This document shows, piece by piece, positions 11,422 to 64,000 of a stretch of 64,000 bases of DNA. The notes under the pieces were generated by a model. It was not told the DNA's origin and searched no databases. It worked only from the letters and a program-made list of their open reading frames with translations. The position numbers were made by a program, and so were the translations under genes. The number at the start of each line of letters is the position of its first letter. Positions within the stretch are counted from its first letter, which is position 1. The DNA is from a virus, in the IMG/VR virus record IMGVR_UViG_3300032213_001568, positions 1 to 64,000 of that record; one strand, 5' to 3'.

Positions 11422-13894
11422 ATTTACATAATTCGTAAACATTCTGTTGAGAAGTCATATATAATGAATTCTTATTAGTGTCTACTGTTAATCCTAAAAT
11501 CAGTTTAGGTGAAACCGAATTAGTTTTTACAACTGTATTTGTACTCGCATTAATAACTGTAATAGTGTCATCATTATAGTTACCAACATATACATACGTA
11601 GAATCAAATGTTAATGTGTATGGTAAATCACCTACAGATATTGTTGAACCTGATGATAAAGTTATTGTATTATATGTTAAAACTTGGTCGTTAGCTCCTC
11701 TTAATACATATAATGTATTATTATTATAATTAACATAACATCTTGTCATATTTGTTTGACCTGTGATTGTGTTTGTAATTGTATTAGTGAATGTATCAAT
11801 TACTGAAATTGTATTTGCTCCTTGATTAAGTACAAATACTCTTCCTGTATTAACATCATAAGTTATAGACGTTGGATTAGTACCGACACTTATTGTTGAT
11901 AATACTGTGTTAGTTGGTGCATCAATTATTGACACACTATTTGTACTATAACTTGTGACGTAAATTCTATTATTGATTGAATCAAAAGTAGATTCTCGAG
12001 GGTTACTAACTAAAGAACCACCTATATATGAAAATGTTGAAGTTGTTTTATCAAAATCGACAGCGTAAACTATACCACCTAAATATCCTGTGGTAACAAT
12101 ATATAAGTAATTGTTTGTTGTGTCTAAAGTTAAATGAATAGGAACAGAACCTGAGAATAAACCGATTGATGTAATTAAATTATCATTATCCTGAGTATCT
12201 ATAATTCTAACGACCTGACCAACTGAATCTGCCACGAATAATAAACTATTTAACTCGTCATATACTGGACTATATAATGCGTTAGTATATCCTGATATGG
12301 TTGCAATAATACTTGGACAATTTAGTATTGGGGTTGGTGATGGTGTTGGTGTTAACGTTGGTGTTGGAGTTTGACTTGGTACTGGATTACAGAATTCACA
12401 ATCAAATAAATTACCACTTTCAATTGATTGAAGTATATTTGTTGGTGAACTTAAAATATCTGAAACATAAGTAACACATGATGATTTGCCATCAATTATT
12501 ACACTAAATGTTGCACCTGTAGAAAATGGGATATCTTCCGATACATAATACTTGTTAATGTTATTACAATCTTGTAAATATTTAGAAAATAAACTTGTAA
12601 ATTTAGATGAAAATGTATTAAATTCAGATGTACCTGTAACAATAACTCCTTTAACTGCGTTTGTTGGTGTAACACTTGGTGTCGGACTTGGTCCTGGGTA
12701 TGGATAATTAACTCCACTAAATGATAATGATTTATTATTACAAAGTGGGGTTGGTGATGGTGTGGTTGTTGGTGTTAAAGTTGGTGTTAAACTAGGTGTT
12801 GGTGTAGGTGTTGCTCCCGAAGTTATATTACAATCAAACACTGCTGTGAAATCAAAAGTATTACAAGAGTCAGTATTTGATGGTGTTGGTGTTGGACAAG
12901 AAGTACTTACATATGTATTATCTAAGTCTGGACAAACAGTATTACTACCTGTTTGTCCAAACAATTTACATTCACCATTTACACAAGATGATAAACACCA
13001 TCTTGTTTCACCTGTATTATAATAGATGTATGCTGAATTAATACCATCTGGTTTATAGAATACGTTATAACCATTAAATTGGTCGTAATTATAGTATATC
13101 CCATCATATTGGGTATACGCACTTAAATTTGTAAATACACAATAACTTGATTGAGGACATGCGGTGTAAATTGGTGATGGGGTGGGTGTATTTGTAGGTG
13201 TTACGGATAATGTTGGTGTTAAAGTTACACAAAATGTTGGAAGAGGTGTTTTAGTTACTGTAGGTGTTGGGGTCTTTGTTGGTGTAATCGATAATGTTGG
13301 TGTTGAAGTATTAGTTACTGTAGGTGTCGGTGTTTTTGTTTTAGTTACTGAAGGTGTTGGTGTTTGTGTTCTTGTTGGTGTGTTTGTTGGTGTTATTGAC
13401 AATGTAGGGGTAATAGTTGGTGTTGGTGTCGGTGTTTTTGTAACCGTTGCAGTAATTGAGACTGTTGGTGTAACTGTCGGTGTTTTAGTATTGGTTACTG
13501 AAGGTGTCGGTGTTTTAGTATTAGTGGGTGTTGTAGTTTTAGTTGGTGTGGTTGTTGGTGTTGTGGTTTTAGTTGGTGTTTGTGTTGGAGTTTTTGTCGG
13601 AGTAGTTGTTGGGGCGGGAGTGGACGTTGGGGTTGGAGTTGGACCTGGAACGCAAGGGTATATAGTTGTACATGCGGAACATGTTAAGTACGATGTTGTA
13701 TTTGCGCTAATTAAATTGAATTCAGTTGTTCCACTATTATAACCTGAGGTTATATATTGAGAACATCCGGTATATTTGTCGGTTATTAAATAATAGAAAG
13801 TATTTGCCGAAAATGTTCCCGCAGAATATGTTGTCTGTATTTGGAATGTAGTACCACTACAACAACCTGAAAATGAATAAAAATTTAATGCCAA
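11420..13894 (-). CDS. Fibre protein with Thr-Pro stalks and YVTN beta-propeller
   Basis: An 824-residue protein. Residues 1-82 are a Cys-rich head starting MALNFYSFSGCC. Residues about 83-235 are a long stalk of TPTPT/KTPT units. They are followed by a Cys-rich globular segment (about 236-330), further short Thr-Pro linkers, a domain around 400-505, and from about 523 to the end a beta-propeller with repeats of the type NNRIYVTSYSTNSVSIID, NTGRVFVLNQGANTISVID and NNTLYVLRGAND. These are typical YVTN/NHL-type blades. There is no signal peptide. It is paralogous at the N-terminus to the + strand gene at 6434. Likely a long side fibre whose propeller binds a host glycan or protein. The + strand frames antisense to the Thr-Pro stalk encode only GVGV-type shadows. 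The Thr-rich stalk is also a possible glycosylation substrate (inference). Confidence 0.75.
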   Translation of the reverse strand: MALNFYSFSGCCSGTTFQIQTTYSAGTFSANTFYYLITDKYTGCSQYITSGYNSGTTEFNLISANTTSYLTCSACTTIYPCVPGPTPTPTSTPAPTTTPTKTPTQTPTKTTTPTTTPTKTTTPTNTKTPTPSVTNTKTPTVTPTVSITATVTKTPTPTPTITPTLSITPTNTPTRTQTPTPSVTKTKTPTPTVTNTSTPTLSITPTKTPTPTVTKTPLPTFCVTLTPTLSVTPTNTPTPSPIYTACPQSSYCVFTNLSAYTQYDGIYYNYDQFNGYNVFYKPDGINSAYIYYNTGETRWCLSSCVNGECKLFGQTGSNTVCPDLDNTYVSTSCPTPTPSNTDSCNTFDFTAVFDCNITSGATPTPTPSLTPTLTPTTTPSPTPLCNNKSLSFSGVNYPYPGPSPTPSVTPTNAVKGVIVTGTSEFNTFSSKFTSLFSKYLQDCNNINKYYVSEDIPFSTGATFSVIIDGKSSCVTYVSDILSSPTNILQSIESGNLFDCEFCNPVPSQTPTPTLTPTPSPTPILNCPSIIATISGYTNALYSPVYDELNSLLFVADSVGQVVRIIDTQDNDNLITSIGLFSGSVPIHLTLDTTNNYLYIVTTGYLGGIVYAVDFDKTTSTFSYIGGSLVSNPRESTFDSINNRIYVTSYSTNSVSIIDAPTNTVLSTISVGTNPTSITYDVNTGRVFVLNQGANTISVIDTFTNTITNTITGQTNMTRCYVNYNNNTLYVLRGANDQVLTYNTITLSSGSTISVGDLPYTLTFDSTYVYVGNYNDDTITVINASTNTVVKTNSVSPKLILGLTVDTNKNSLYMTSQQNVYELCK

Positions 13895-31252: not shown

Positions 31253-32173
31253 TTGGAAAATTTTTATCAGATTTTAGATGTACCAGAAACTGCAAGTCAG
31301 GAAGAAATAAAAAAGGCGTATAGAAAAAAAGCGGTGGAATCACATCCTGATAAGGGTGGTGATGAGGAAGTATTTAAGAAGATTTCAGAAGCTTATGATA
31401 CTTTAGGTGATGAAGAAAAAAAGAGACAATATGACAATAATCGAAATAACCCTTTTGGTAGTTTTGACGGTGACCCCTTCAACATGTTTCATGATTTCTT
31501 TAATAATGTAAGACAAAATAATCCAAGAAAGGCTCCTGATAAAGTTGTTGAATTAAATGTTGGAACTTTAGATTCTTATATTGGAAAGAACGTTGATATT
31601 AATTTTAGTCGAAAAATTAATTGTAATACCTGTAATGGTAAAGGTGGTGATAGGGTTACATGTTCGAAATGTAACGGTTCAGGTAGACTAACACAAAGAA
31701 TTGGTAATTCATTCTTTAGTAATATAGTACAGACACCGTGTGATGTTTGTTCAGGTCAAGGATTTAGTTTAAATAACGTTTGTTTTTCTTGTGCTGGTGA
31801 GGGTAAAAATAATGAGATGAAGACAATTAACATTAATTTACCTCATGGTATTACTGATGGTCAAATGATAAAGGCAAAACAAATGGGTGATTATCATGAA
31901 GGTAGTTTTGGGGATATAATTTTTAAAGTTAAGGTAAATCCTCAGGATGGATTTGATAAAGTAAATAATGACTTAGTATACAATTATCAAATGTCATTAG
32001 AAGATTTTAATAAAGATATGATTGATGTGCCACATCCATCAGGTAACCTAAATATAAAATTACCTGAAGAGATAGATACGACAAAACCCCTACGTGTTAA
32101 AGGTAAGGGTTTTAAAAATGACGGTATTGGTGATTTCTATGTCAACATGTACGTTAAACACAAAAGGGGTTAG
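31253..32173 (+). CDS. dnaJ: DnaJ-type co-chaperone
   Basis: A 306-residue protein starting at a TTG (no upstream ATG fits the J-domain start). J domain at 1-65 with HPDKGG at 31-36; a Gly/Phe/Asn-rich linker (NPFGSFDGDPFNMF); four zinc-binding CxxCxGxG repeats (CNTCNGKG, CSKCNGSG, CDVCSGQG, CFSCAGEG) from about residue 125; and the C-terminal substrate domain. This is a full type A DnaJ, shorter than the bacterial one (about 375 residues). It would stimulate host DnaK, possibly for fibre folding or replisome remodelling. Its last 4 nt overlap the convergent gene. Confidence 0.9.
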   Translation: MENFYQILDVPETASQEEIKKAYRKKAVESHPDKGGDEEVFKKISEAYDTLGDEEKKRQYDNNRNNPFGSFDGDPFNMFHDFFNNVRQNNPRKAPDKVVELNVGTLDSYIGKNVDINFSRKINCNTCNGKGGDRVTCSKCNGSGRLTQRIGNSFFSNIVQTPCDVCSGQGFSLNNVCFSCAGEGKNNEMKTININLPHGITDGQMIKAKQMGDYHEGSFGDIIFKVKVNPQDGFDKVNNDLVYNYQMSLEDFNKDMIDVPHPSGNLNIKLPEEIDTTKPLRVKGKGFKNDGIGDFYVNMYVKHKRG

Positions 32174-32556: not shown

Positions 32557-32629
32557 TGTGTATATTTTTTTTTGTAAAGATAATATATTCTATGGATTTA
32601 TGAAATAAATATTGTTATTTTTTTTAGGT

Positions 32630-35230
32630 ATGAAGAAAATATTATTTATAGTCCCACACCTATCTACTGGAGGACTACCACAGGTTACTACGAATAAGAT
32701 TCAACTTCTTAAAGACGATTATATTATAAAGTGTGTTGAATACGGATGTTATTCATGGGATTTTGTTGTTCAGAAGAACCGAATTAAGAATTTGATTGGG
32801 GAAGATAACCTTGTTACTTTATGGGACGATAAAAATGTTTTAATTGATTTTATTAATGATTTCCAACCTGATATCATATCAATGGAGGAGTTCCCTGAAT
32901 TTTTTATGGATAACAACATTACAAGACAAATTTATAGACAAAACCGACCATATAAAATATTTGAAACAACACATGACTCAAGTTTCAAACCAACATCTAA
33001 AGTTTGGTTTCCTGATAAATTTATTTTTGTTAGTGTGTTCAATGCTATTCAGTATTCAATGTTTGATATACCCTATGAGGTGATTGAATATCCTATTGAA
33101 AATCGAGATAAAAGAAAAGAACTCTTCCAAGAAAAACTTGGACTTGATAAAGGTTATAAACATGTTGTTAACGTCGGGTTATTCACTGAAAGAAAGAATC
33201 AAAAATACATTTTTGAAATTGCTCGTAAGTTAGAGAACTCTAAAATTAAATTTCATTTCATTGGTAACCAAGCGGATAACTTTAAAGGTTACTGGGAACC
33301 ATTGATGAATAACAAACCTGAGAACTGTATTGTTTGGGGTGAGAAGGATAATGTAAATGAATTTTTGGAAGCGTCCGATTTGTTTATGTTTCCATCTAAA
33401 GGTGATAGAAATAATAAAGAATTAAATCCAATAGCTATTAAGGAAGCCATTGAATATGGTATTCCTATGATGATGTATAACTTGGATGTGTATTGTGGGA
33501 AATATGATAAACTACCTCAGGTTACATTTTTAACTGGAGATATTGATAAAGATGTGAATAATATGATGGATGTATTAAATGTTGGTGGTATTGATTCCCT
33601 ATTCAACTTGGGTTTTAATGGGGATAATAATCAGATTACAATAACCTATAATGGAAACCAAAAATTTGATTTTAATGTAAGTATTAGAGACATGACTTCA
33701 AAAGCTCCGATGTATTGGTTTAATTTACCTTTGGAGTATCCAATATTTTACTGGACAATACCTATTCCAATTCATATTAAGAAATTCAAAGACAATACTA
33801 ATTTCAGAGGATTTTTAGTTGAGTTTTATGATTCTCAAACAAATGAGTTAGTTTTTGGTCAAGAGTTGATTGTTAATCCTAATTTTCATCCAAGAATCCC
33901 TGAATTTAAATTTAAACCTTTGGATTGTAATTATATTAATTATTATGAATTTTTTGTTGATAGATGTTTTGACGATTTAAAGTTAGAAAATCTTGATACA
34001 GTAATTGATATTGGTGCCAATGTTGGTTTGTTTGCAAAGTATATGTATACCATAAATGCTAAAAAAGTTATTTTAGTTGAAGCAAATCCATATTTACAGG
34101 AAAGTATTGAATATCATTTAGATAATGATTTGGAAAAATCTGTTATTTACATGAATCCTGTTTATAAAGAACATACCAAGATTGATTTTAGATTTTCAAA
34201 AGAAAACTCAACTATTGGTTCAAATGTTTTTGATGGTAATGTGGGAGAATATGGACAACTTAACAATCTAATTAGTTGTGATACAATTACAATTGATGAT
34301 ATATACAAAGATAATAACTACGGTAGAATATCTCTATTTAAATGTGATATTGAAGGTGGGGAGTATCCGATTTTTGAATCAATTACCGATGAACAAATTG
34401 GATTAGTTGACAGATTCATGGTTGAGTTTCACGAAAATACTAATGGTGAAATTAATATTATACTTGAAAAATTAGATAGAAATAATTTTGAGTATGACAT
34501 TATTGTTTATGAAATGGGTAGGAAAACTAAAGCCGATAAAAATGCTAAACATGGTGTTATTTTTGCTAAACCTAAGAATGTTAAATTAAGAAAACCTGGT
34601 ACTTTATCATCGTCAGTTTATGATGTAACAAAGAGTTTTGAAGAACGATTAGCGGAATATACAGGGGCACCCTATGCTGTTACTATTGATAACCAAAGTA
34701 ATGCTTTGTTCTTGGCTTTGTATTATGAAAAGATTACTGGTAAAACAATTAAAATACCAAGTAGAACATACCCTTCAGTTCCTTGTGAGATTATCCATGC
34801 CGGTGGTAAAGTTGAATTTGAACCTGTTTATGGTTCTACTCTTAAAGGACCTTATCAATTATCACCAACAAATGTTTGGGATTCAGCGTTAAGATTCACC
34901 AACGATATGTATATACCAGGAACTCATATGTGTTTATCATTTACGGGCCCGTATAAACACTTGAAACTAGGTAAGGGTGGTGCAATCCTAACTGATGACT
35001 TTGAGGCTTACAAGTGGTTTAAACGGGCAAGATACTCAGGTAGAAATGAAGTTTCATATCATGATGATAATTTTGACATGTTAGGATGGAATTTTTACAT
35101 GATGCCTGAAATCGCTTCAAGAGGTTTACTGCTTATGAATCAATTCTATAACATGGATGGTACACCTAAACACAATGAGGATTTAGAATTACCATATCCT
35201 GACTTATCAAAATTTGATATCTATAAATGA
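32630..35230 (+). CDS. Three-module fusion: glycosyltransferase, FkbM methyltransferase, DegT aminotransferase
   Basis: An 866-residue protein from the ATG at 32630. Residues 1-330 form a GT-B type glycosyltransferase (start KKILFIVPHLSTGGLPQV; NVGLFTERKNQKYIFEIA as the usual substrate-binding loop). A beta-rich linker follows. Residues about 455-650 are a SAM methyltransferase of the FkbM family (VIDIGANVGL, CDIEGGEYPIFESI). From about 653 to the end is a DegT/DnrJ/EryC1-like PLP aminotransferase (SSVYDVTKSFEERLAEYTGA; SFTGPYKHLKLGKGGAI with the candidate PLP lysine near residue 772). It begins the glycan island. A single frame with no stop supports a real fusion. Function: making and attaching a modified amino sugar, inferred. 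Confidence 0.75.
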   Translation: MKKILFIVPHLSTGGLPQVTTNKIQLLKDDYIIKCVEYGCYSWDFVVQKNRIKNLIGEDNLVTLWDDKNVLIDFINDFQPDIISMEEFPEFFMDNNITRQIYRQNRPYKIFETTHDSSFKPTSKVWFPDKFIFVSVFNAIQYSMFDIPYEVIEYPIENRDKRKELFQEKLGLDKGYKHVVNVGLFTERKNQKYIFEIARKLENSKIKFHFIGNQADNFKGYWEPLMNNKPENCIVWGEKDNVNEFLEASDLFMFPSKGDRNNKELNPIAIKEAIEYGIPMMMYNLDVYCGKYDKLPQVTFLTGDIDKDVNNMMDVLNVGGIDSLFNLGFNGDNNQITITYNGNQKFDFNVSIRDMTSKAPMYWFNLPLEYPIFYWTIPIPIHIKKFKDNTNFRGFLVEFYDSQTNELVFGQELIVNPNFHPRIPEFKFKPLDCNYINYYEFFVDRCFDDLKLENLDTVIDIGANVGLFAKYMYTINAKKVILVEANPYLQESIEYHLDNDLEKSVIYMNPVYKEHTKIDFRFSKENSTIGSNVFDGNVGEYGQLNNLISCDTITIDDIYKDNNYGRISLFKCDIEGGEYPIFESITDEQIGLVDRFMVEFHENTNGEINIILEKLDRNNFEYDIIVYEMGRKTKADKNAKHGVIFAKPKNVKLRKPGTLSSSVYDVTKSFEERLAEYTGAPYAVTIDNQSNALFLALYYEKITGKTIKIPSRTYPSVPCEIIHAGGKVEFEPVYGSTLKGPYQLSPTNVWDSALRFTNDMYIPGTHMCLSFTGPYKHLKLGKGGAILTDDFEAYKWFKRARYSGRNEVSYHDDNFDMLGWNFYMMPEIASRGLLLMNQFYNMDGTPKHNEDLELPYPDLSKFDIYK

Positions 35231-35850
35231 TTGTAGGTTTCAACGAATATAAACATAAGTATGACTTTAATGTTACTGGTGTAATTCATGTTGGTGCTCA
35301 TGTTGGTCAAGAGTATGATGAATATATAAGAACATTTGGTGTAATACCAACATATTGGTTTGAACCTATACCACATGTATATAAAGAACTATCTAAAAAT
35401 TTAAATGGTAAACCTAACACATTTTATTATAATGTTGCGATAGGTGATAGAAATGGTATACACGAAATGTATCTTGATGAAGGTAATGGACAACAAAGTT
35501 CTTCATTATTAAAACCAAAGGAACATCAAAATTTTTACCCACATATTAAATTTAGTGAAGAGAATACTATTAATATTACATTAAGCACATTAGATTTTTA
35601 CAATATAACTTCTTGTAATGTTTTAGTTTTAGATACACAAGGATATGAGTTAAACTCTCTTAAAGGTTCAATTAATACTTTAAAGAATATTGATTATATA
35701 TTTACGGAGTTTAATTTGATTGAAATGTATGATGGTTGCCCATCTATTGAACAACTTGATGAGTTTTTATTACCATTTGGGTTCCAAAGACAAGAGACAT
35801 GGAATGTTGACGGTGTTTGGGGTGATGCATTTTATTTAAAAAGAATATGA
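35227..35850 (+). CDS. FkbM-family methyltransferase
   Basis: A 207-residue protein. VTGVIHVGAHVGQEYDEY near residue 16-32 is the SAM-binding motif, LVLDTQGYELNSLKG near 136-150 is the FkbM signature (D-x2-G-x-E), and FTEF follows. FkbM proteins methylate sugar hydroxyl groups on glycans and polyketides. It overlaps the fusion gene by 4 nt and the acyltransferase gene by 4 nt, so all are co-translated. It duplicates the activity of the middle module of the preceding gene, perhaps on another hydroxyl. Confidence 0.75.
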   Translation: MIVGFNEYKHKYDFNVTGVIHVGAHVGQEYDEYIRTFGVIPTYWFEPIPHVYKELSKNLNGKPNTFYYNVAIGDRNGIHEMYLDEGNGQQSSSLLKPKEHQNFYPHIKFSEENTINITLSTLDFYNITSCNVLVLDTQGYELNSLKGSINTLKNIDYIFTEFNLIEMYDGCPSIEQLDEFLLPFGFQRQETWNVDGVWGDAFYLKRI

Positions 35851-36434
35851 TTAAGAAAGCGTTTATTGGTAATGGAGGGCATTTAAGAGAAGTAATTGCT
35901 CATACAAACTATGATGTAACTAGGTTTGTTGAAGATGAGTATTTCAAAGGGGAGGATAAAACATTACCATTATCACAATTCAATCCAAAAGAGTTCTATA
36001 TTATGATTGCAATTGCTGATAGTCAAGTTAGGTCAAGAATTCAAAAATCACTACCTGAAGATACTAAATATTTTTCATTCATCCATCCATCATCAATTTT
36101 ATTGGATAGAAATATTGTAATTGGTGAAGGTTCATTTATTGGTGCTAATTGTGTTATAACTACCAATGTTAAGATTGGTAATCATACTATTTTGAATAGA
36201 AATGTTAATATCGGACACGATGTTGTAATAGGTGATTGTTTTAGTGCTATGGCCGGTTCTGTTGTTTCAGGTAATGTTTTAATTGGTGATAATTGTTATA
36301 TGGGTAATAACTCATCAATAAGAGAAAAGATAACAATTTGTGATGATGTTATAATTGGAATGAATGGAAGTGTTGTTAAAGATATTGATAAACCTGGAAC
36401 TTATGTTGGGGTTCCTGTAAATAAAATAAAATAA
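35847..36434 (+). CDS. Sugar O- or N-acyltransferase, NeuD/PglD-like
   Basis: A 195-residue protein. N-terminal Rossmann-like domain (KKAFIGNGGHLREVI) followed from about residue 75 by left-handed beta-helix hexapeptide repeats (VIGEGSFIGANCVI, VKIGNHTILNRNVNIGHD, VLIGDNCYMGNNSSI, VIIGMNGSVV). The family acetylates amino groups of 4-amino sugars (PglD) or sialic acid (NeuD). The candidate catalytic His is in NIGHDVVIGD near residue 118. With the DegT-type module next door it suggests an acylated amino sugar. Confidence 0.8.
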   Translation: MIKKAFIGNGGHLREVIAHTNYDVTRFVEDEYFKGEDKTLPLSQFNPKEFYIMIAIADSQVRSRIQKSLPEDTKYFSFIHPSSILLDRNIVIGEGSFIGANCVITTNVKIGNHTILNRNVNIGHDVVIGDCFSAMAGSVVSGNVLIGDNCYMGNNSSIREKITICDDVIIGMNGSVVKDIDKPGTYVGVPVNKIK

Positions 36435-38170
36435 TGGAAAAATTACTTTCGGTCATTGTATCGTCATATAATTTTGAGAAATACCTCAAGGAGTGTGTTG
36501 ATTCAATTTATAAACAAAAAATCACCTATGGTTTTCAGGTAGTAGTTAGAGATGATTGTTCAACAGACAATACTAAAGATGTTTTAGTTGAATTAAAAGA
36601 AAAGTATCCTGATTTAGTTATTTTAAATGGTAATGTTAATTTAGGGGCTCTTGAAAATATTAGAACTTTATTAAATTACTGTAAAACAAAATACATTGCA
36701 TATATTGATGGTGATGATTATTTTGATAATTATACAATCTTAAATGAAGAAGTTGAGTTTTTAGAAAACAGCCCAAATTATAGTATGGTTTGTACAGGAA
36801 CAAGATATTTGTATCCTGATGGTACCAAGATACCTACAGTTCCCGAATTGTTTATTAGTTCATTTCTTGACGATGTAACAACAAATGATTTATTAACTAT
36901 CAATCACGCATCTTTTGCAAGGGTATTTAGGAACATACCAAATCTAATAAAGGATTATTTTACAAATTTACCTTATGTTGATTGGCCGCTTAATTATGAA
37001 ATTAGTAAACATGGTTTAATTAAGTGTATTCATAAATGTGGTGGAATATATAGAATATCAAATGATGGTATGTTTTCAAATGTTTCAGAAGAGGAAAAAA
37101 ACAAAAAAAACATAATAGTTTCTAATGAACTCAAAAGACAAAATATTAAAGATGAGTTTAAAACAATAACAATAGTTGATTGTTTTATTCATAATGAAAA
37201 TGTTTTAAATAAGTTGGAGTTATGTGTTAATAACTTAAAAAAGTATAACCATACAATACTTCTTGTGTCTAATACTATTGTTCCTGAACATATATTAAAA
37301 ATTGTTGATTATCATTTATATAACTCAAATAACATTCTTTTTGAAGGTGAATACACTAATTCCGAACCAGTTATTTTTTGGAAAAACCTTGGTTCATTAA
37401 CAACTCATGAAGTTACAAATACAATACAAAAACATGGATTACCTGTTATGGTTAATTTGTTTAACTCATTAGATTTGTGTAAGTCATTTGGGTTTACACA
37501 TTTCCAAAGAATTGAAGTTGATGATTTATATAGTGAAGAAGGTTATGAATATATGAAAACTGTACCAGTGATTTGTTCTACTCAAAACAAAAAGGGAATG
37601 TTTTATTTTAATGAAGGTAGAGATGTTTCGTTCCATTATTTTTATTGTGAAATAGAATACTTCCAACAGATAATTAATAGGATTAATTGTGAGGAAGATT
37701 ATAAAAATTATTTACAAAATAATGGGTATGGTACTGACTTTATAAATGTTGAAAAATATCTTTATGATAACATAAATAGAAAAGATTATGGTTTAATAAT
37801 TCGAAAAGACGGAGAAGTTGATATGAACACTGATTTCCAAAATACCTTATGGAATACGGAAACAACTGTTAGTAATGTATCTTCAAAATTCAAAGGATGT
37901 TCTACAAAACTTTATAATATTTCAGGACAAAATTCTATAATGTTATTATCCTACAATTACAATCATTTTAGGTCGGAAAGAAAAATAGTTGTTAATTATA
38001 TTGATGGTAGTTTAGAAACTATATACCACGGGTTAGAAAATTATGGACATTGGTCATTTAATATTTTTGAAAATAAAGTTGAAAAAATATCAGTGTACGA
38101 TACTCAAGATGATGAATTTTTATATGATTTTATAAATAAAAATATTCTTGATTACATTATTTTTTCATGA
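36434..38170 (+). CDS. GT2 glycosyltransferase with C-terminal extension
   Basis: A 578-residue protein. A family 2 GT-A domain occupies residues 1-220: LSVIVSSYNFEKYLKECVDS, VVRDDCSTDNTKDVL and the DxD-like IDGDDY near residue 95. The remaining 350 residues contain a second globular region, partly like a tyrosine-rich sugar-binding or glycosyltransferase-associated domain, and a beta-rich C-terminus (SSKFKGCSTKLYNISGQN). It overlaps both neighbours by 1-4 nt. The acceptor is unknown; the second half may be another transferase domain. Confidence 0.75.
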   Translation: MEKLLSVIVSSYNFEKYLKECVDSIYKQKITYGFQVVVRDDCSTDNTKDVLVELKEKYPDLVILNGNVNLGALENIRTLLNYCKTKYIAYIDGDDYFDNYTILNEEVEFLENSPNYSMVCTGTRYLYPDGTKIPTVPELFISSFLDDVTTNDLLTINHASFARVFRNIPNLIKDYFTNLPYVDWPLNYEISKHGLIKCIHKCGGIYRISNDGMFSNVSEEEKNKKNIIVSNELKRQNIKDEFKTITIVDCFIHNENVLNKLELCVNNLKKYNHTILLVSNTIVPEHILKIVDYHLYNSNNILFEGEYTNSEPVIFWKNLGSLTTHEVTNTIQKHGLPVMVNLFNSLDLCKSFGFTHFQRIEVDDLYSEEGYEYMKTVPVICSTQNKKGMFYFNEGRDVSFHYFYCEIEYFQQIINRINCEEDYKNYLQNNGYGTDFINVEKYLYDNINRKDYGLIIRKDGEVDMNTDFQNTLWNTETTVSNVSSKFKGCSTKLYNISGQNSIMLLSYNYNHFRSERKIVVNYIDGSLETIYHGLENYGHWSFNIFENKVEKISVYDTQDDEFLYDFINKNILDYIIFS

Positions 38171-38934
38171 TTGGATTAACTATAACAACTTGTAAACGAA
38201 TTGATTTATTTGAAAAAACAATAATTTCTTTTACCAAAGAATGTGAAGATTTAAATTTAATTGATATCATAATCCACTACGATGATTCTTCGTCTTTAGA
38301 GGACAGAAATAAAATGTTTTCTTTACTGAATAGATTGTTTCCTGAAACTTTAATAGTATCTAAAAGATTTAACGTTAACTCATTTAATACTAGTAGAAGA
38401 CATTTAGAAATAATGAAAAAATGGAAAGAAGATATTAAATTTTTTAATATTGATTATGTTTTTCATTTGGAAGATGATTGGTTTTTTGAAAATCCATTTA
38501 ACCTTCATGAGGGTATTGAGTTATTAAAAAATAATGAAGATGTTGGTATGGTAGGATTTTCATGGAAGAAAAAAATATTCCCAATGGAATTATTCCAACC
38601 TAAATTAATTGGTAATTTTTGGGAATGGTATTATTCTGATAAACATTATTTAAATGAACCGTTGTTTAATGACACTGTTGAAGAAGATTTACATGTAGTT
38701 AAGGGATTGTGGATTAAATATATTAATTGGCCATACTTTGGTTTTAGACCGGCAATTCATGATGTTAATAAATTAAATCAAATTGATACTTTTAATGATA
38801 ACATGGATTCTTTTGAATTAGAATTTGCAATAAGATTCTCAAAAAGATTCAAATCGTTTTTACATTCAGAAAGAATTTGTTATCATATTGGTGATGAAAA
38901 TTCATCATATAATTTAAATAATTCTTTAAGATAA
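38167..38934 (+). CDS. Glycosyltransferase, GT-A fold
   Basis: A 255-residue protein. LTITTCKRIDLFEKTIISF opens the GT-A fold, IIHYDDSSSLEDR is the nucleotide-sugar strand, and HLEDDWFFENP near residue 99-109 is the metal-binding acidic motif. The C-terminus is rich in aromatic and acidic residues. Overlaps neighbours by ATGA and TAATG junctions within the glycan operon. Donor and acceptor not readable from sequence. Confidence 0.7.
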   Translation: MIGLTITTCKRIDLFEKTIISFTKECEDLNLIDIIIHYDDSSSLEDRNKMFSLLNRLFPETLIVSKRFNVNSFNTSRRHLEIMKKWKEDIKFFNIDYVFHLEDDWFFENPFNLHEGIELLKNNEDVGMVGFSWKKKIFPMELFQPKLIGNFWEWYYSDKHYLNEPLFNDTVEEDLHVVKGLWIKYINWPYFGFRPAIHDVNKLNQIDTFNDNMDSFELEFAIRFSKRFKSFLHSERICYHIGDENSSYNLNNSLR

Positions 38935-39506
38935 TGGATTACAATTTTTTATGGGTACCTAAGACCACTTATCATAGGTCAGCACAAAGTCAGTTTGTTG
39001 TTGATGTTTTTCCTAAAATATTAAAAAATTTTGAATTAATAATTGAAATTGGAACATTTACAGGGGCGTTCACTTTATGGTTGTCTGAAAATAAATCTGA
39101 TAATTGTAAAATAATTTCTTACGATATTAATCCTGATTATTGTGAAGTTAATAATCTTAAAGATACTGAATTAAGAATTGGAGATTGTTTTGATATTGAT
39201 GTTATGAAAGATATTCGTGATTTAATTAACAATTCGGGTAGAACTATTTTTTTATGTGATGGAGGGGATAAGGAACTTGAGTTTAGATTATATTCAAAGT
39301 ACTTGAAAAAGGATGATGTTATAATGCTTCACGATTATTCACATAGTGATGAAGAGTATAATATTATTAAAGAAAAAATAAATTGGCCAACAAATTCAGA
39401 ATCACACTATAAAAATATTGAAAGATACTTACCTGAACTTAATTTGACTACATTTATGTATGATGATTTTAAACAAGTTTTATGGGGTTCGTTTATAAAA
39501 AATTGA
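38934..39506 (+). CDS. SAM-dependent methyltransferase, CmcI-like
   Basis: A 190-residue protein. IIEIGTFTGAFTLWLSENK at residues 36-54 is the glycine-rich SAM-binding loop, ISYDINPDY the second acidic strand, and IFLCDGGDKELEFRLY and VIMLHDYSHSDEEY are later conserved acidic segments as in the cephalosporin hydroxylase/CmcI methyltransferase group. Likely a sugar O-methyltransferase in this island. It is shorter than typical CmcI (about 230-250 residues). Confidence 0.65.
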   Translation: MDYNFLWVPKTTYHRSAQSQFVVDVFPKILKNFELIIEIGTFTGAFTLWLSENKSDNCKIISYDINPDYCEVNNLKDTELRIGDCFDIDVMKDIRDLINNSGRTIFLCDGGDKELEFRLYSKYLKKDDVIMLHDYSHSDEEYNIIKEKINWPTNSESHYKNIERYLPELNLTTFMYDDFKQVLWGSFIKN

Positions 39507-39507
39507 T

Positions 39508-40227
39508 ATGAATTATAAGATTAAATTAGTTCATTTACAGACAACACAGAATGAACATAGAGAAAAACTATCACGAAAATCTATACAACAAGTAATACCT
39601 TACGGTATTGAATATGTTTTACATCAGAACGAGTTATATACTTCGTTACCTCCAGTTCATACAAGTGTTAGACCACATAATGTTAGAATCGGTAAGTATG
39701 AAGATGTTAATGACCCTGAATATGGGAACGCATTAACTCCAGCTCACTACGGATGTTTTGAAGCTTTTAAAATTGGTATCCTATCAGAATTTGATAATGA
39801 TTTAGATTTCTTAATTGTCTGTGAGGGTGATTGTATAATAGAAGTACCTATTGAAGAATTTATAGATAAAGTTAATTGGGTATGTGGTATTGTTAATCAG
39901 GAAGATATTTCTTATTTTTCATTTGGTGATACTAAAACTTTAGATTATGGGTGGCATCAATCTGACGTTGTTAGAGAAATACCGAACCAAGATTTATTGT
40001 TTATTACTAATAAAATAATTGGTTTACAGTGTATTATGTTTTCAAAAAAATCACGTAAAACAATTATGAACCAGTTAAGAACACATAGATGGGATTGTGC
40101 TGACACATTTTTTAATATAATATGTGCTGAACAGAGATTAACTATGGGTGTTTTAAAGAAAAGAATAACAACCCAAGCGGATGGGGAATCATTCATAGAT
40201 AAAGAATATAAAGTTTTTACAAAATAA
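39508..40227 (+). CDS. Putative glycosyltransferase, LPS family-like
   Basis: A 239-residue protein. KIKLVHLQTTQNEHREKLSR resembles the start of family 25 type transferases (conserved N-terminal Arg-containing loop), LTPAHYGCFEAFKIGILSEF recalls the GEIGCxxSH helix, and LDFLIVCEGDCIIE is in the position of the acidic DxD site although it reads EGD. The C-terminal TQADGESFIDKEYK is conserved-looking. Assignment is tentative; a role as nucleotide-sugar-dependent transferase fits the operon. Confidence 0.5.
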   Translation: MNYKIKLVHLQTTQNEHREKLSRKSIQQVIPYGIEYVLHQNELYTSLPPVHTSVRPHNVRIGKYEDVNDPEYGNALTPAHYGCFEAFKIGILSEFDNDLDFLIVCEGDCIIEVPIEEFIDKVNWVCGIVNQEDISYFSFGDTKTLDYGWHQSDVVREIPNQDLLFITNKIIGLQCIMFSKKSRKTIMNQLRTHRWDCADTFFNIICAEQRLTMGVLKKRITTQADGESFIDKEYKVFTK

Positions 40228-40228
40228 T

Positions 40229-40774
40229 ATGGCACACGAACAACAAAAGAATTTTTTTAAAAGAGTTAAAGATAAATATCCAAAATATTTTACAGATGTA
40301 AAAGTTTTAGATATTGGTTCTTTGGATATAAATGGTTCAATACGGGATTTATTTGATTATCCATTTTATTATGTTGGGTTAGATTTAGCTGAGGGTAAAA
40401 ATGTTGATGTAATTTGTCCTGGGCATTTATATGACTCAGGATTTGAATTTGATGTTGTTTCATCTGGAGAATGTTTTGAACATGATATGTATTATGCAAG
40501 AACAATACAGAATATGATTAGACTTCTTAAGTGTGGAGGTTTAATGGTTTTTACTTGTGCGTCAACAGGTAGACCTGAACACGGTACTTTAAGGACTACA
40601 CCTGAAAACGCTCCTTTTTTAAGTGGTATTAGTGAAAAGTGGGGAAATTATTATAAAAATTTAACTGAAGATGATATAAGGTCGGTTATTGATGTTAATG
40701 ATATCTTTAGTGATTTTGGATTTGAATATGAACCAGTAACTTGTGATTTATATTTTTGGGGGATAAAAAAATGA
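40229..40774 (+). CDS. SAM-dependent methyltransferase, Methyltransf_11-like
   Basis: A 181-residue protein. VLDIGSLDINGSIRDLF (residues 26-42) is a SAM-binding motif variant, YVGLDLAEGKNVDVI the second, FDVVSSGECFEH the third and RLLKCGGLMVFTCAS the post-core helix-strand. A TGRPEHGT loop follows. A small-molecule or sugar methyltransferase in the glycan operon, starting 1 nt after the preceding stop and overlapping the next gene by 4 nt. Confidence 0.7.
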   Translation: MAHEQQKNFFKRVKDKYPKYFTDVKVLDIGSLDINGSIRDLFDYPFYYVGLDLAEGKNVDVICPGHLYDSGFEFDVVSSGECFEHDMYYARTIQNMIRLLKCGGLMVFTCASTGRPEHGTLRTTPENAPFLSGISEKWGNYYKNLTEDDIRSVIDVNDIFSDFGFEYEPVTCDLYFWGIKK

Positions 40775-41466
40775 TTGATGTTGATGTGATTTGTCTGACA
40801 AATACAACTTCTGATGATTTGTATTGGATGACTCGTCGTACATTAACTACCATACACGATTCGGAAAAAGATTATAAATTTCATATTCATTTGATTGAGA
40901 CAAATTCTGATAGTAAATATGACTATTCAGATATTGTTGAAAATTATGTAAAACCAAATGAAAAATTTAATTACAATAGATTTTTAAATCACTCATATCC
41001 ATATGTAAAACATGATTGGGTATTAATTACAAATAATGATGTAAGATACGAAAGAGGATGGTTTTCAAAAATAATTGAAGTTTACACTAAAAGACCTGAT
41101 GTTGAATCTTTTTCACCTAAATGTCCAATTTTATATTCTAAATATTTTTACGATGATTTCTTAGGTGGTGATTTAGATTTTCATGAAAGTGTTGGTACTA
41201 GTGTTCATTTAATGGGATGGTCATTAGTTATGAAAAAAAGAGTTTTTGATATTGTTTATCCTTGGGACGAAAATTTTTATATGTATTACCAAGATAATGA
41301 TTACGCTGAAATTCTATTAAAGAATAATATTAAACATGGTTTGGTTAGGGACTCAATTGCAACTCACTTAGAATCACAAACTATAAAACATAAATTTAAT
41401 TCAAATACAATTGATAATCTTAAAGTAAAAAATTATTTTTATCAAAAATGGGGAAAGGAGATTTAA
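40771..41466 (+). CDS. GT2-type glycosyltransferase
   Basis: A 231-residue protein from the ATG at 40771, chosen over an upstream TTG because it overlaps the previous stop (ATGA). IDVDVICLTNTTSDDLYWMT starts the fold; FNYNRFLNHSYPYVKHDW and VLITNNDVRYERGW (acidic NND metal site) follow; the end has YPWDENFYMYYQDNDYAEIL, which resembles the catalytic WDExFF...DxD region of rhamnosyltransferase-like GT2 members. Inverting transferase likely; substrate unknown. Confidence 0.7.
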   Translation: MIDVDVICLTNTTSDDLYWMTRRTLTTIHDSEKDYKFHIHLIETNSDSKYDYSDIVENYVKPNEKFNYNRFLNHSYPYVKHDWVLITNNDVRYERGWFSKIIEVYTKRPDVESFSPKCPILYSKYFYDDFLGGDLDFHESVGTSVHLMGWSLVMKKRVFDIVYPWDENFYMYYQDNDYAEILLKNNIKHGLVRDSIATHLESQTIKHKFNSNTIDNLKVKNYFYQKWGKEI

Positions 41467-41467
41467 T

Positions 41468-43594
41468 ATGAAAATTACACAAGTAACACCTGGAATTATT
41501 ACAATACCACCTAACGGATGGGGAGCGGTCGAAAAAGTAATATGGGAATATTACAACAATATTAAAGAGTTAGGTTACCAATGTGACATAAAATATCTTA
41601 ATGAGGTAGATACTAATAGTAGTGATATTATTCATATTCACATGGCTAATTTAGCAATTGATGCTGCTAACAAAGGAATACCCTACATTTTTTCATTACA
41701 CGACCACCACGTTGTTTATTATGGTAAGGACTCATCTAACTACCAACAAAATTTAGAGGCGATTAAAAGGTCTGTGGTATCTTTTACACATGCTGAGTTT
41801 TTAGTTGATTACTTTGATGAAACTGATAAGTTGTTCTACCTATCACATGGTGTTAATACAGAGTTCTTTAAGAATGACAAACCGAAAAGAAGTGAACATA
41901 AATTATTATGTTTAGCGAACAATGGTATTGGGGGAGATTCAACGTATGATAGAAAGGGATTTAGATATGCAATTGAAGCGGCAATTAAATTAGATTTACC
42001 TATTACAGTTGCCGGTCCTGAAAATAATAGAATATTCTTTGAACATCATAATGACTTATTAAATTATGATAAGTTAACTTTAATGTTTTCAAATCCAAAC
42101 GAAGAACAAATATTAGAATTATATAAAAGTCATTCTATATTCTTACATCCTTCTATGTTAGAGGCCGGTCACCCTAATCTAACATTATTAGAAGCAGTAT
42201 CTTGTAATATGCCAGTTGTTGGTACTTACTTAGGTTCACAAACGATAGAAGGAATGGTTGTGGTTGAAAGAGATGTAAATCAAATAGTTAGTGGTGTTAA
42301 ACAAATCATTGATAATTACGATTTATATTTAAGTAACACTGAATTAGATAGACAAAATTATGATTGGAGTATTATTACCAAGAGAATGGTTAGAATTTAT
42401 GAAGACCTGATTAACAGTAGAAAAAATTTGAATAGTCTTGAGACTAAACAAAGATTTGATAAAGTATTTGAGAATACTGAAATAAAACCAAAAGAGATGG
42501 TTGAAAAAATTGAAGTGATTAATCACTACATCAACGGAGCATTAGTAGAAATTAAAGGTAATACTGATAAGAAATATTTGGTTGAGTTTTGGAACCAAAA
42601 TGGTGATTGTGAATATCGTGAGGAGATTGGGTGTAATATGTGGGTTAGATTAAGTAAGAAGTATTTTGATGAATACACATTGAAAATTTACTCTGAAGGT
42701 AATTTAATCAGTGAAAAGAAATACAACGCTGAAAACAAACGAGTTTATATTGCATTAGATTCAAAATCTTTGGGTGATACATTTGCTTGGGTACCTTACG
42801 CTGAAGAATTTAGAAAGAAACATAACTGTAAAGTTATCTGTTCAACATTCTTTAACGATTTGTTTGTAAAACAATATCCTGAAATACAATTTGTTCCACC
42901 TGGAAGCACGGTTGATAACCTATATGCTATGTATGAGATAGGTTGGTTCTACAATGGTGATAATGTTAAAACTGATAGACACCCAAGTGATTTTAAATTA
43001 GGACCATTACAAAAAACTGCTACAGACATCTTAGGTTTGGAATACAAGGAGGTAAAACCTTTAATCAAAAATCCTAACAAGTTAAAAAAGAAAAGAGTTG
43101 GACTTGGTATACACTCAACCGCTCAATCAAAATACTGGAACAACCCAAATGGGTGGCAAGAGATTACTGATTATCTAATATCTCTTGGTTATGAGGTTAT
43201 TATCTATTCAAAAGAGGAAGATGGGTATATGGGTAATTACTATCCTAAAGGCGCTAAACAAAACCCACCAGGTTCCATCTATAAATTGATTGAAGAATTA
43301 TCTACCTGTGAATTCTTCATAGGTATATCAAGTGGTATATCATGGGTTACTTGGGCTTTGGACATCCCAACAGTATTAATATCAGGATTTACTGAAGAGT
43401 TTAATGAGCCTTATGATAATGTTTATAAGGTTAGTGCTCCTGAAAATACTTGTAGAGGATGTGCTAATAAATTTAGATTAGACCCGGGTGATTGGAATTG
43501 GTGTCCAATAAATAAGGGAAATGATAAGATATTTGAATGTTCTAAAAAGATAACATCTGATATGGTAAAAGAACAAATCGTTAAAATAATTTAA
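41468..43594 (+). CDS. Bifunctional glycosyltransferase: GT4 plus BAHT-like heptosyltransferase
   Basis: A 708-residue protein. Residues 1-320 are GT4-like (ITQVTPGIITIPPNGWGAVEK; HPSMLEAGHPNLTLLEAVSC). A linker and small beta domain follow to about 410. Residues 410-708 resemble the bacterial autotransporter heptosyltransferase family (TibC/AAH-like): LDSKSLGDTFAWVPYAEEF, GIHSTAQSKYWNNPNGWQE, CEFFIGISSGISWVTWALD and the metal-binding cysteines CRGC (about 661-664), WCP (678) and FECSKKIT (691). That family adds heptose to Ser residues of strand-loop-strand repeat proteins, so protein O-glycosylation of the phage's Ser/Thr-rich fibres is plausible. The last gene of the operon ends in a perfect hairpin. 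Confidence 0.75.
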   Translation: MKITQVTPGIITIPPNGWGAVEKVIWEYYNNIKELGYQCDIKYLNEVDTNSSDIIHIHMANLAIDAANKGIPYIFSLHDHHVVYYGKDSSNYQQNLEAIKRSVVSFTHAEFLVDYFDETDKLFYLSHGVNTEFFKNDKPKRSEHKLLCLANNGIGGDSTYDRKGFRYAIEAAIKLDLPITVAGPENNRIFFEHHNDLLNYDKLTLMFSNPNEEQILELYKSHSIFLHPSMLEAGHPNLTLLEAVSCNMPVVGTYLGSQTIEGMVVVERDVNQIVSGVKQIIDNYDLYLSNTELDRQNYDWSIITKRMVRIYEDLINSRKNLNSLETKQRFDKVFENTEIKPKEMVEKIEVINHYINGALVEIKGNTDKKYLVEFWNQNGDCEYREEIGCNMWVRLSKKYFDEYTLKIYSEGNLISEKKYNAENKRVYIALDSKSLGDTFAWVPYAEEFRKKHNCKVICSTFFNDLFVKQYPEIQFVPPGSTVDNLYAMYEIGWFYNGDNVKTDRHPSDFKLGPLQKTATDILGLEYKEVKPLIKNPNKLKKKRVGLGIHSTAQSKYWNNPNGWQEITDYLISLGYEVIIYSKEEDGYMGNYYPKGAKQNPPGSIYKLIEELSTCEFFIGISSGISWVTWALDIPTVLISGFTEEFNEPYDNVYKVSAPENTCRGCANKFRLDPGDWNWCPINKGNDKIFECSKKITSDMVKEQIVKII

Positions 43595-63511: not shown

Positions 63512-64000
63512 ATATATTAATAACTGGTGGATTAGGTTTTATTGGTTCTAATTTTTATAATACCTTTAAAAATAAATATCCTGACTATAATTTAGTTATC
63601 CTTGATAGTGAAACATATGCTGCTGATGAAGATAATATTGAAGATTATGGAAAGGCAAGAATAATCAAGTTCAGTATTACTGAACGAGAAAGATTATTTG
63701 AGTTATTTGAAAATTACAAGTTTGATTCGGTGATACACTTTGCAGCTGAATCACATGTTGATAACTCAATATTAAATCCGATGGAGTTTGTTCAAACAAA
63801 TATTATTGGAACGTTGAATTTGTTGGATGCTTCTGTTAAGTATGGTATTAACTTGTTCTATCATATATCAACCGATGAAGTTTTCGGACATTTAGGTGCT
63901 GTGGGTTCTTTTGATGAGAAAACCGCTTACGACCCAAGAAGTCCTTACTCGGCATCAAAAGCATCATCCGACCATTTTGTTAGAGCGTATTACCACACTT
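63508..64000 (+). CDS. rmlB: dTDP-glucose 4,6-dehydratase, 3' truncated by window edge
   Basis: 164 residues are visible; the gene runs off the window. MNILITGGLGFIGSNFYNTF is the NAD-binding glycine motif, SVIHFAAESHVDNSI the typical RmlB segment, HISTDEVFG the Thr-Asp-Glu catalytic triad region and SPYSASKASSDHFV the YxxxK catalytic motif. The enzyme makes dTDP-4-keto-6-deoxyglucose, precursor of rhamnose and of 4- or 3-amino sugars, which a DegT aminotransferase would use. It thus links with the glycan island at 32.6-43.6 kb. Confidence 0.92.
   Translation, partial: MNILITGGLGFIGSNFYNTFKNKYPDYNLVILDSETYAADEDNIEDYGKARIIKFSITERERLFELFENYKFDSVIHFAAESHVDNSILNPMEFVQTNIIGTLNLLDASVKYGINLFYHISTDEVFGHLGAVGSFDEKTAYDPRSPYSASKASSDHFVRAYYHT

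Follow-up and report, generated by a model that had tools for sequence, protein, structure and literature searches.

We found that the window, a 64,000-nt stretch of viral DNA (positions 1–64,000 of IMG/VR record IMGVR_UViG_3300032213_001568, itself a 110-kb fragment), encodes a genuine and conserved fusion protein in which a GT4-like glycosyltransferase, a β-sandwich module, an FkbM methyltransferase and a half-size sugar-aminotransferase-like domain, here called mini-DegT, are joined in one polypeptide (Table 1). We think it reasonably probable that this phage, itself probably of Bacteroidota, encodes a route to a decorated 4-amino-4,6-dideoxy sugar, three steps of which lie in the one polypeptide.

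Table 1. Modules of the fusion protein and associated genes (window coordinates unless indicated).
Feature	Position	Strand	Remarks
Fusion ORF, GT4–β-sandwich–FkbM–mini-DegT	32630..35230	+	866 aa
GT-B glycosyltransferase (GT4-like) module	32630..33565	+	aa 1–312; EX7E motif E264/E272
β-sandwich module	33593..33919	+	aa 322–430; seven predicted strands, aa 325–414
FkbM SAM methyltransferase module	33932..34573	+	aa 435–648; D460-G462-A463-N464-G466, E484, D573-E575-E578 invariant
Linker without in-frame start codon	34574..34609	+	KLRxPGTLSSSVYD text, which also opens the free mini-DegT of relative L008
Mini-DegT module, half-size sugar-aminotransferase-like domain	34610..35227	+	aa 661–866; D751 (WDSA), S770, K776 (SFTGPYK), N821 (GWN) invariant
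Second, separate FkbM methyltransferase	35227..35850	+	207 aa; 4-bp overlap with fusion stop
Hexapeptide sugar N-acetyltransferase, NeuD/PglB/VioB family	35847..36434	+	149 bits, just under cut-off 160.8
Rest of glycan cassette	36434..43594	+	Pfam search
GT2	starts 36434	+	glycan cassette
Unassigned GT-like gene	starts 38167	+	glycan cassette
Methyltransferases	start 38934 and 40229	+	glycan cassette
Gene of unknown type	starts 39508	+	glycan cassette
GT2-like gene	starts 40756	+	glycan cassette
GT4+GT9 (heptosyltransferase) fusion	41468–43594	+	708 aa; another fusion in the same cassette
RmlB, dTDP-glucose 4,6-dehydratase	63508–64476 of record (window ends at 64000)	+	TIGR01181, 404.5 bits, cut-off 365.1
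RmlA-like enzyme	about 102802–103668 of the 110-kb record		PF00483 and reading of sequence

The 866-codon frame is intact on the plus strand and starts with ATG at 32630, a TTG being present at 32612 as well. A preliminary description had placed three glycan enzymes in this frame, and all domain matches lay above their cut-offs: Pfam Glycos_transf_1 (PF00534) at residues 164–284 (45.1 bits, cut-off 26.4), which corresponds to the C-domain of the glycosyltransferase; the FkbM family Methyltransf_21 (PF05050) at residues 460–621 (48.4 bits, cut-off 22.7); NCBIfam TIGR01444 FkbM (54.6 bits, cut-off 37.7); and DegT (PF01041) at residues 664–730 and a second stretch (47.3 bits, cut-off 19.8). The motifs quoted in that description (VIDIGANVGL and CDIEGGE) are present and are conserved in aligned relatives. 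EX7E of GT4 and DxGAN and DxExxE of FkbM did not vary among 13 aligned sequences, the most distant of which had 34% identity. Domain search and modelling thus recovered the three enzymes but added a fourth module, the β-sandwich. In the AlphaFold2 model of the full-length protein the glycosyltransferase, β-sandwich and FkbM parts were mostly confident and the DegT part was poor, probably owing to too shallow an alignment. Since that part failed, a separate model of mini-DegT was built from a deeper alignment (pLDDT 84.5). The glycosyltransferase module had no phmmer match in the PDB, and a near-DNA search in phage records gave no match.

RmlA, RmlB, the aminotransferase-like module, a VioB/NeuD-type acetyltransferase, methyltransferase and glycosyltransferase all occur in this one phage record. 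In the proposed route, RmlA and RmlB would produce dTDP-4-keto-6-deoxyglucose, which the half-size DegT module would aminate with PLP in the manner of VioA or Per. The VioB/NeuD-type enzyme at 35847 would then N-acylate the amino sugar, FkbM would add an O-methyl group to the sugar or to the glycan, and GT4 would transfer a sugar to an acceptor on the virion or host surface. The product would be an N-acylated, probably O-methylated, viosamine-like 4-amino-6-deoxy sugar; the catalytic activity of the half-size enzyme, the identity of the sugar, the position methylated and the acceptor are all proposed from protein family and gene context. In the window the fusion with its mini-DegT is followed by the separate FkbM gene and then the acetyltransferase gene, and RmlB and RmlA lie 29 kb and 68 kb from the fusion, both outside the glycan cassette. 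In the 110-kb record no RmlC was found and RmlD gave no match except RmlB itself; both absences are provisional because the record is a fragment. Right behind the RmlA-like gene, at about 103883–104908 of the record (L260 2579–3604), there is by reading of the sequence a glutamine synthetase-like gene, a possible supply of amino donor, with a cysteine-synthase-like fragment upstream of it.

The neighbours of mini-DegT were counted at 67 dereplicated places. The gene right after it was a hexapeptide acyltransferase in 34 of 66 places, overlapping the mini-DegT stop by 4 bp in 20 of these 34; the second gene was of this type in 12 of 62 places, and no such gene occurred at positions −8 to −3. 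A separate Pfam count gave Hexapep after mini-DegT in 32 of 63 places, 17 of them with PglD_N. A dehydratase was close to mini-DegT at only 9 of 67 places. In a sister phage (242 kb, fusion 96% identical) a mini-DegT paralogue has a hexapeptide acetyltransferase-like gene on one side and a gene for a Gmd-like dehydratase (380 bits, cut-off 415) on the other. N-acetylperosamine is made by Gmd, Per and PerB, and the paralogue appears to occupy the Per slot. As dehydratase types vary between phages, the sugar may vary too. In the glycan cassette of close relative L008 a MaoC-like hydratase (11801–12166) is flanked by the acyltransferase and a GT2, and might provide a 3-hydroxyacyl group to be used in N-acylation, compare the 3-hydroxybutyryl viosamine of Pseudomonas syringae.

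Of 59 distinct GT4 relatives, 31 had the GT4–sandwich–FkbM core. Mini-DegT was fused to it in 4 of these 31, lay one or two genes downstream in 6, and was not found within five genes of the fetched stretch in 21. The C-terminal partner of the core was a second FkbM in L007/L008, L208 and L212, a GT-like module in L029, GT2 in L205 and L247, GT2 plus CmcI in L201 and GT34 in L219; another methyltransferase also serves as the C-terminus in some relatives. The L201 (5853–9170), L205 (4995–8768) and L247 (111–4148) proteins, of 1106–1346 residues, belong to a wider fusion-enzyme family. In the mini-DegT tree the fused copies formed one clade (support 99/96) in which one unfused copy, L027, was nested. 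L008, a near-copy of L027, has its second FkbM between core and mini-DegT, and its mini-DegT opens with almost the same text as the linker of the window's fusion. Together these observations are best fitted by one fusion event that was later undone in one branch. Unfused GT4-FkbM and mini-DegT genes adjoin in several divergent phages (L017–L025, L030, L059, L124 and L191), which suggests that the association predates the fusion. We therefore regard the fusion as one product of widespread module shuffling and of a single joining of adjacent genes within one lineage of phages.

This distribution bears on the earlier suggestion that the fusion channels one sugar through amination, methylation and transfer. 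Substrate channelling is neither required nor supported by it: the core usually stands without a nearby mini-DegT and carries other modules at its C-terminus, mini-DegT mostly stands as a free gene, with an acyltransferase as its most regular neighbour, and in close kin at 95% identity mini-DegT is unfused. The related idea of a single amino-sugar pathway stays plausible in view of RmlA, RmlB and the VioB/NeuD-type acetyltransferase in the same record. Since the core is usually found without mini-DegT, the sugar handled by GT4-FkbM need not be the aminated one. The main alternative, which we judge unlikely although it deserves weight, is that each of the three modules works on a different sugar within one glycan and that their fusion is incidental, arising from shuffling and giving at most co-expression or co-localisation. 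It agrees with the varying C-terminal partners, the single fused clade with its nested unfused copy and the mostly free mini-DegTs, but it does not readily account for unfused core and mini-DegT genes standing side by side in divergent phages.

The DegT assignment of the preliminary description held for the family match and the catalytic motifs, but the module is only about half of a canonical DegT protein. It does not contain the whole two-domain fold of about 360 residues, covering only positions ~23–90 and 165–231 of the 360 in the PF01041 profile. In profile comparison with PDB sequences, its residues 10–80 and 105–179 corresponded to about 33–106 and 173–245 of enzymes of 374–382 residues, so that about 42 central and about 125 C-terminal residues are missing. 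The solved sugar aminotransferase relatives found here have about 360–445 residues each, and the C-terminal domain is present in all solved relatives found. No further DegT piece was detected elsewhere in the 110-kb record, and a split enzyme with its C-terminal half in another gene was rejected accordingly. D96, S115, K121, K127-G-G and N166 (domain numbering) were invariant in 27 aligned sequences; among these, K121, the PLP Schiff-base lysine, aligned with the PLP-lysine position of the DegT family in profile comparison, and D96 was assigned from its motif as the aspartate facing PLP N1. Absence of catalytic residues from alignments had been named as grounds for giving up the description, and the key residues of GT4, FkbM and mini-DegT all proved invariant. 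Foldseek searches with the mini-DegT model returned only members of the sugar aminotransferase/dehydratase family as top matches, the best solved one being GDP-perosamine synthase (E 2.8e-8; TM-score ~0.62 by query and ~0.37 by target).

In ArnB and PseC a Gln or His three residues past the aspartate stacks on the PLP ring. In the WDSAL segment of mini-DegT this residue is Leu. It is rather improbable that mini-DegT binds PLP in some other role, for instance as a sugar dehydratase/epimerase or as a scaffold for the acyltransferase, and is not an aminotransferase; the differing ring-stacking residue, the loss of about half of the fold and the occurrence of sugar dehydratases such as ColD among the solved relatives would suit such a role, while the invariant lysine, aspartate and partner-subunit asparagine positions in the 27 copies, and a next gene often of the acyltransferase type that acts on amino sugars, speak for the aminotransferase. 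Whether phages own a class of half-size, single-domain PLP sugar aminotransferases (about 205 residues), free or fusible, which serve N-acylated amino-deoxy sugars and are possibly the smallest fold-type-I PLP enzymes, we hold to be evenly balanced. If they do, a widespread viral family that retains the catalytic lysine at about half length would show how little of the fold suffices. This is the surprising part of the find and the one most worth an experiment, and a cultured phage, immuto, carries such a gene. At one locus (L075 10744–11376) a second, divergent mini-DegT (48% identical) has a more canonical lysine motif, SFHIKKN, and Lys at the ring-stacking position.

Most mini-DegTs are free, unfused genes. 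They were found as such in at least 500 viral stretches and encode proteins of 195–229 residues, typically about 209. Among GTDB contigs only 8 carried mini-DegT; phage-type genes were present in three of the five tested, namely RNR and primase (L076), DNA polymerase (L079) and a major head protein (L078), and the other two of these five gave no clear phage sign. A further 147 genomes from one bacterial order all lacked it. A bacterial family borrowed by phages was rejected on these counts, and mini-DegT is a virus-borne family with hardly any occurrence outside viruses. No PHROG is dedicated to it, and the five mini forms tested matched phrog_3139, an aminotransferase family of 387 positions. 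In cultured phages it stands under ordinary annotation, as WecE in Flavobacterium phage immuto and as AHBA synthase in cyanophage S-SCSM2R. Within L174 8001–11668 the S-SCSM2R mini-DegT is near a gene annotated as inosamine amidinotransferase, a hint of an aminocyclitol or amidino sugar.

The triple fusion recurred in contigs from 13 metagenomes (L002–L006, L009–L014, L016 and L098), ranging from near identity to ~65% identity in the GT domain. dN/dS was far below 1 in the fusion domains wherever it could be computed, dS having reached saturation in the GT domain of the two most divergent copies, and the domains are under purifying selection. An error of sequencing or assembly that wrongly joined separate genes, the other ground on which the description was to be abandoned, has a negligible probability in view of these independent copies, even though mini-DegT is a separate gene in close relatives L007/L008. 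From codon 629 to codon 693 the fusion has no start codon in frame, so an internal start giving a free mini-DegT with its proper N-terminus was rejected.

Several known systems resemble parts of this one. The viosamine island of P. syringae, vioA-vioM-vioT-vioS-vioB-vioR-acp, which was studied by mutants, leads to a methylated N-acyl viosamine (PMC3927599). It likewise provides aminotransferase, methyltransferase, glycosyltransferase and N-acyltransferase for one dTDP-4-amino-6-deoxy sugar, but its enzymes are separate and bacterial and VioA is full-length (372 aa). Mimivirus makes UDP-2OMe-Vio4NAc with R141, L136, L142 and R132, established largely by enzymology, the methyltransferase being only predicted (PMC10117803). 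As in the present phage, a virus has its own dehydratase and PLP aminotransferase, there with an acetyltransferase-glycosyltransferase fusion and that predicted methyltransferase; Mimivirus differs as a eukaryotic giant virus with a UDP route, a full-length aminotransferase (352 aa) and another fusion pair. Mini-DegT shares the PLP-lysine and aspartate positions and the GxN motif with Per (3bn1, 3dr4 and 3dr7) and the DegT/DnrJ/EryC1/StrS family (PF01041), but solved Per chains have 364–368 residues against about 205 in the phage form, which lacks the C-terminal domain and a central segment. The joining of viral glycan enzymes in a single polypeptide is already known, and the phage fusion is a further variation on it: A064R of chlorovirus PBCV-1 has three domains of ~200 residues (PMC9614988), and A111/114R has three glycosyltransferase functions according to a title cited in PMC10117803. 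PBCV-1 is a eukaryotic virus. To our knowledge, neither of its two proteins contains a DegT module. Closest to the phage module is the free mini-DegT of the cultured Flavobacterium phage vB_FspM_immuto (QQO91778.1), which is 72.6% identical, unfused and followed by a gene annotated as pilin glycosylation protein; a longer DegT-type gene (399 aa) is also present there. No paper on this fusion or on a half-size DegT was found in the literature searched, which left subscription journals mostly outside.

The virus appears to be a large tailed phage of a Bacteroidota host. The host is suggested by bS21 in sister phages G001 and G002, together with a study of freshwater Bacteroidetes phages with bS21, where DegT is listed as one of the families to which their proteins commonly belong and the genes with the highest transcription include one for an FkbM protein (PMC9723584); the fragment that contains the window yielded no bS21. 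Large, modular glycan cassettes that include fusion enzymes thus occur in phages of aquatic bacteria, and in one such phage the enzymes for a rare amino sugar seem to be all present, as judged from its predicted genes. Shortly upstream of the fusion, at 31253–32173 of the window, lies a DnaJ-like phage gene with zinc-finger repeats.
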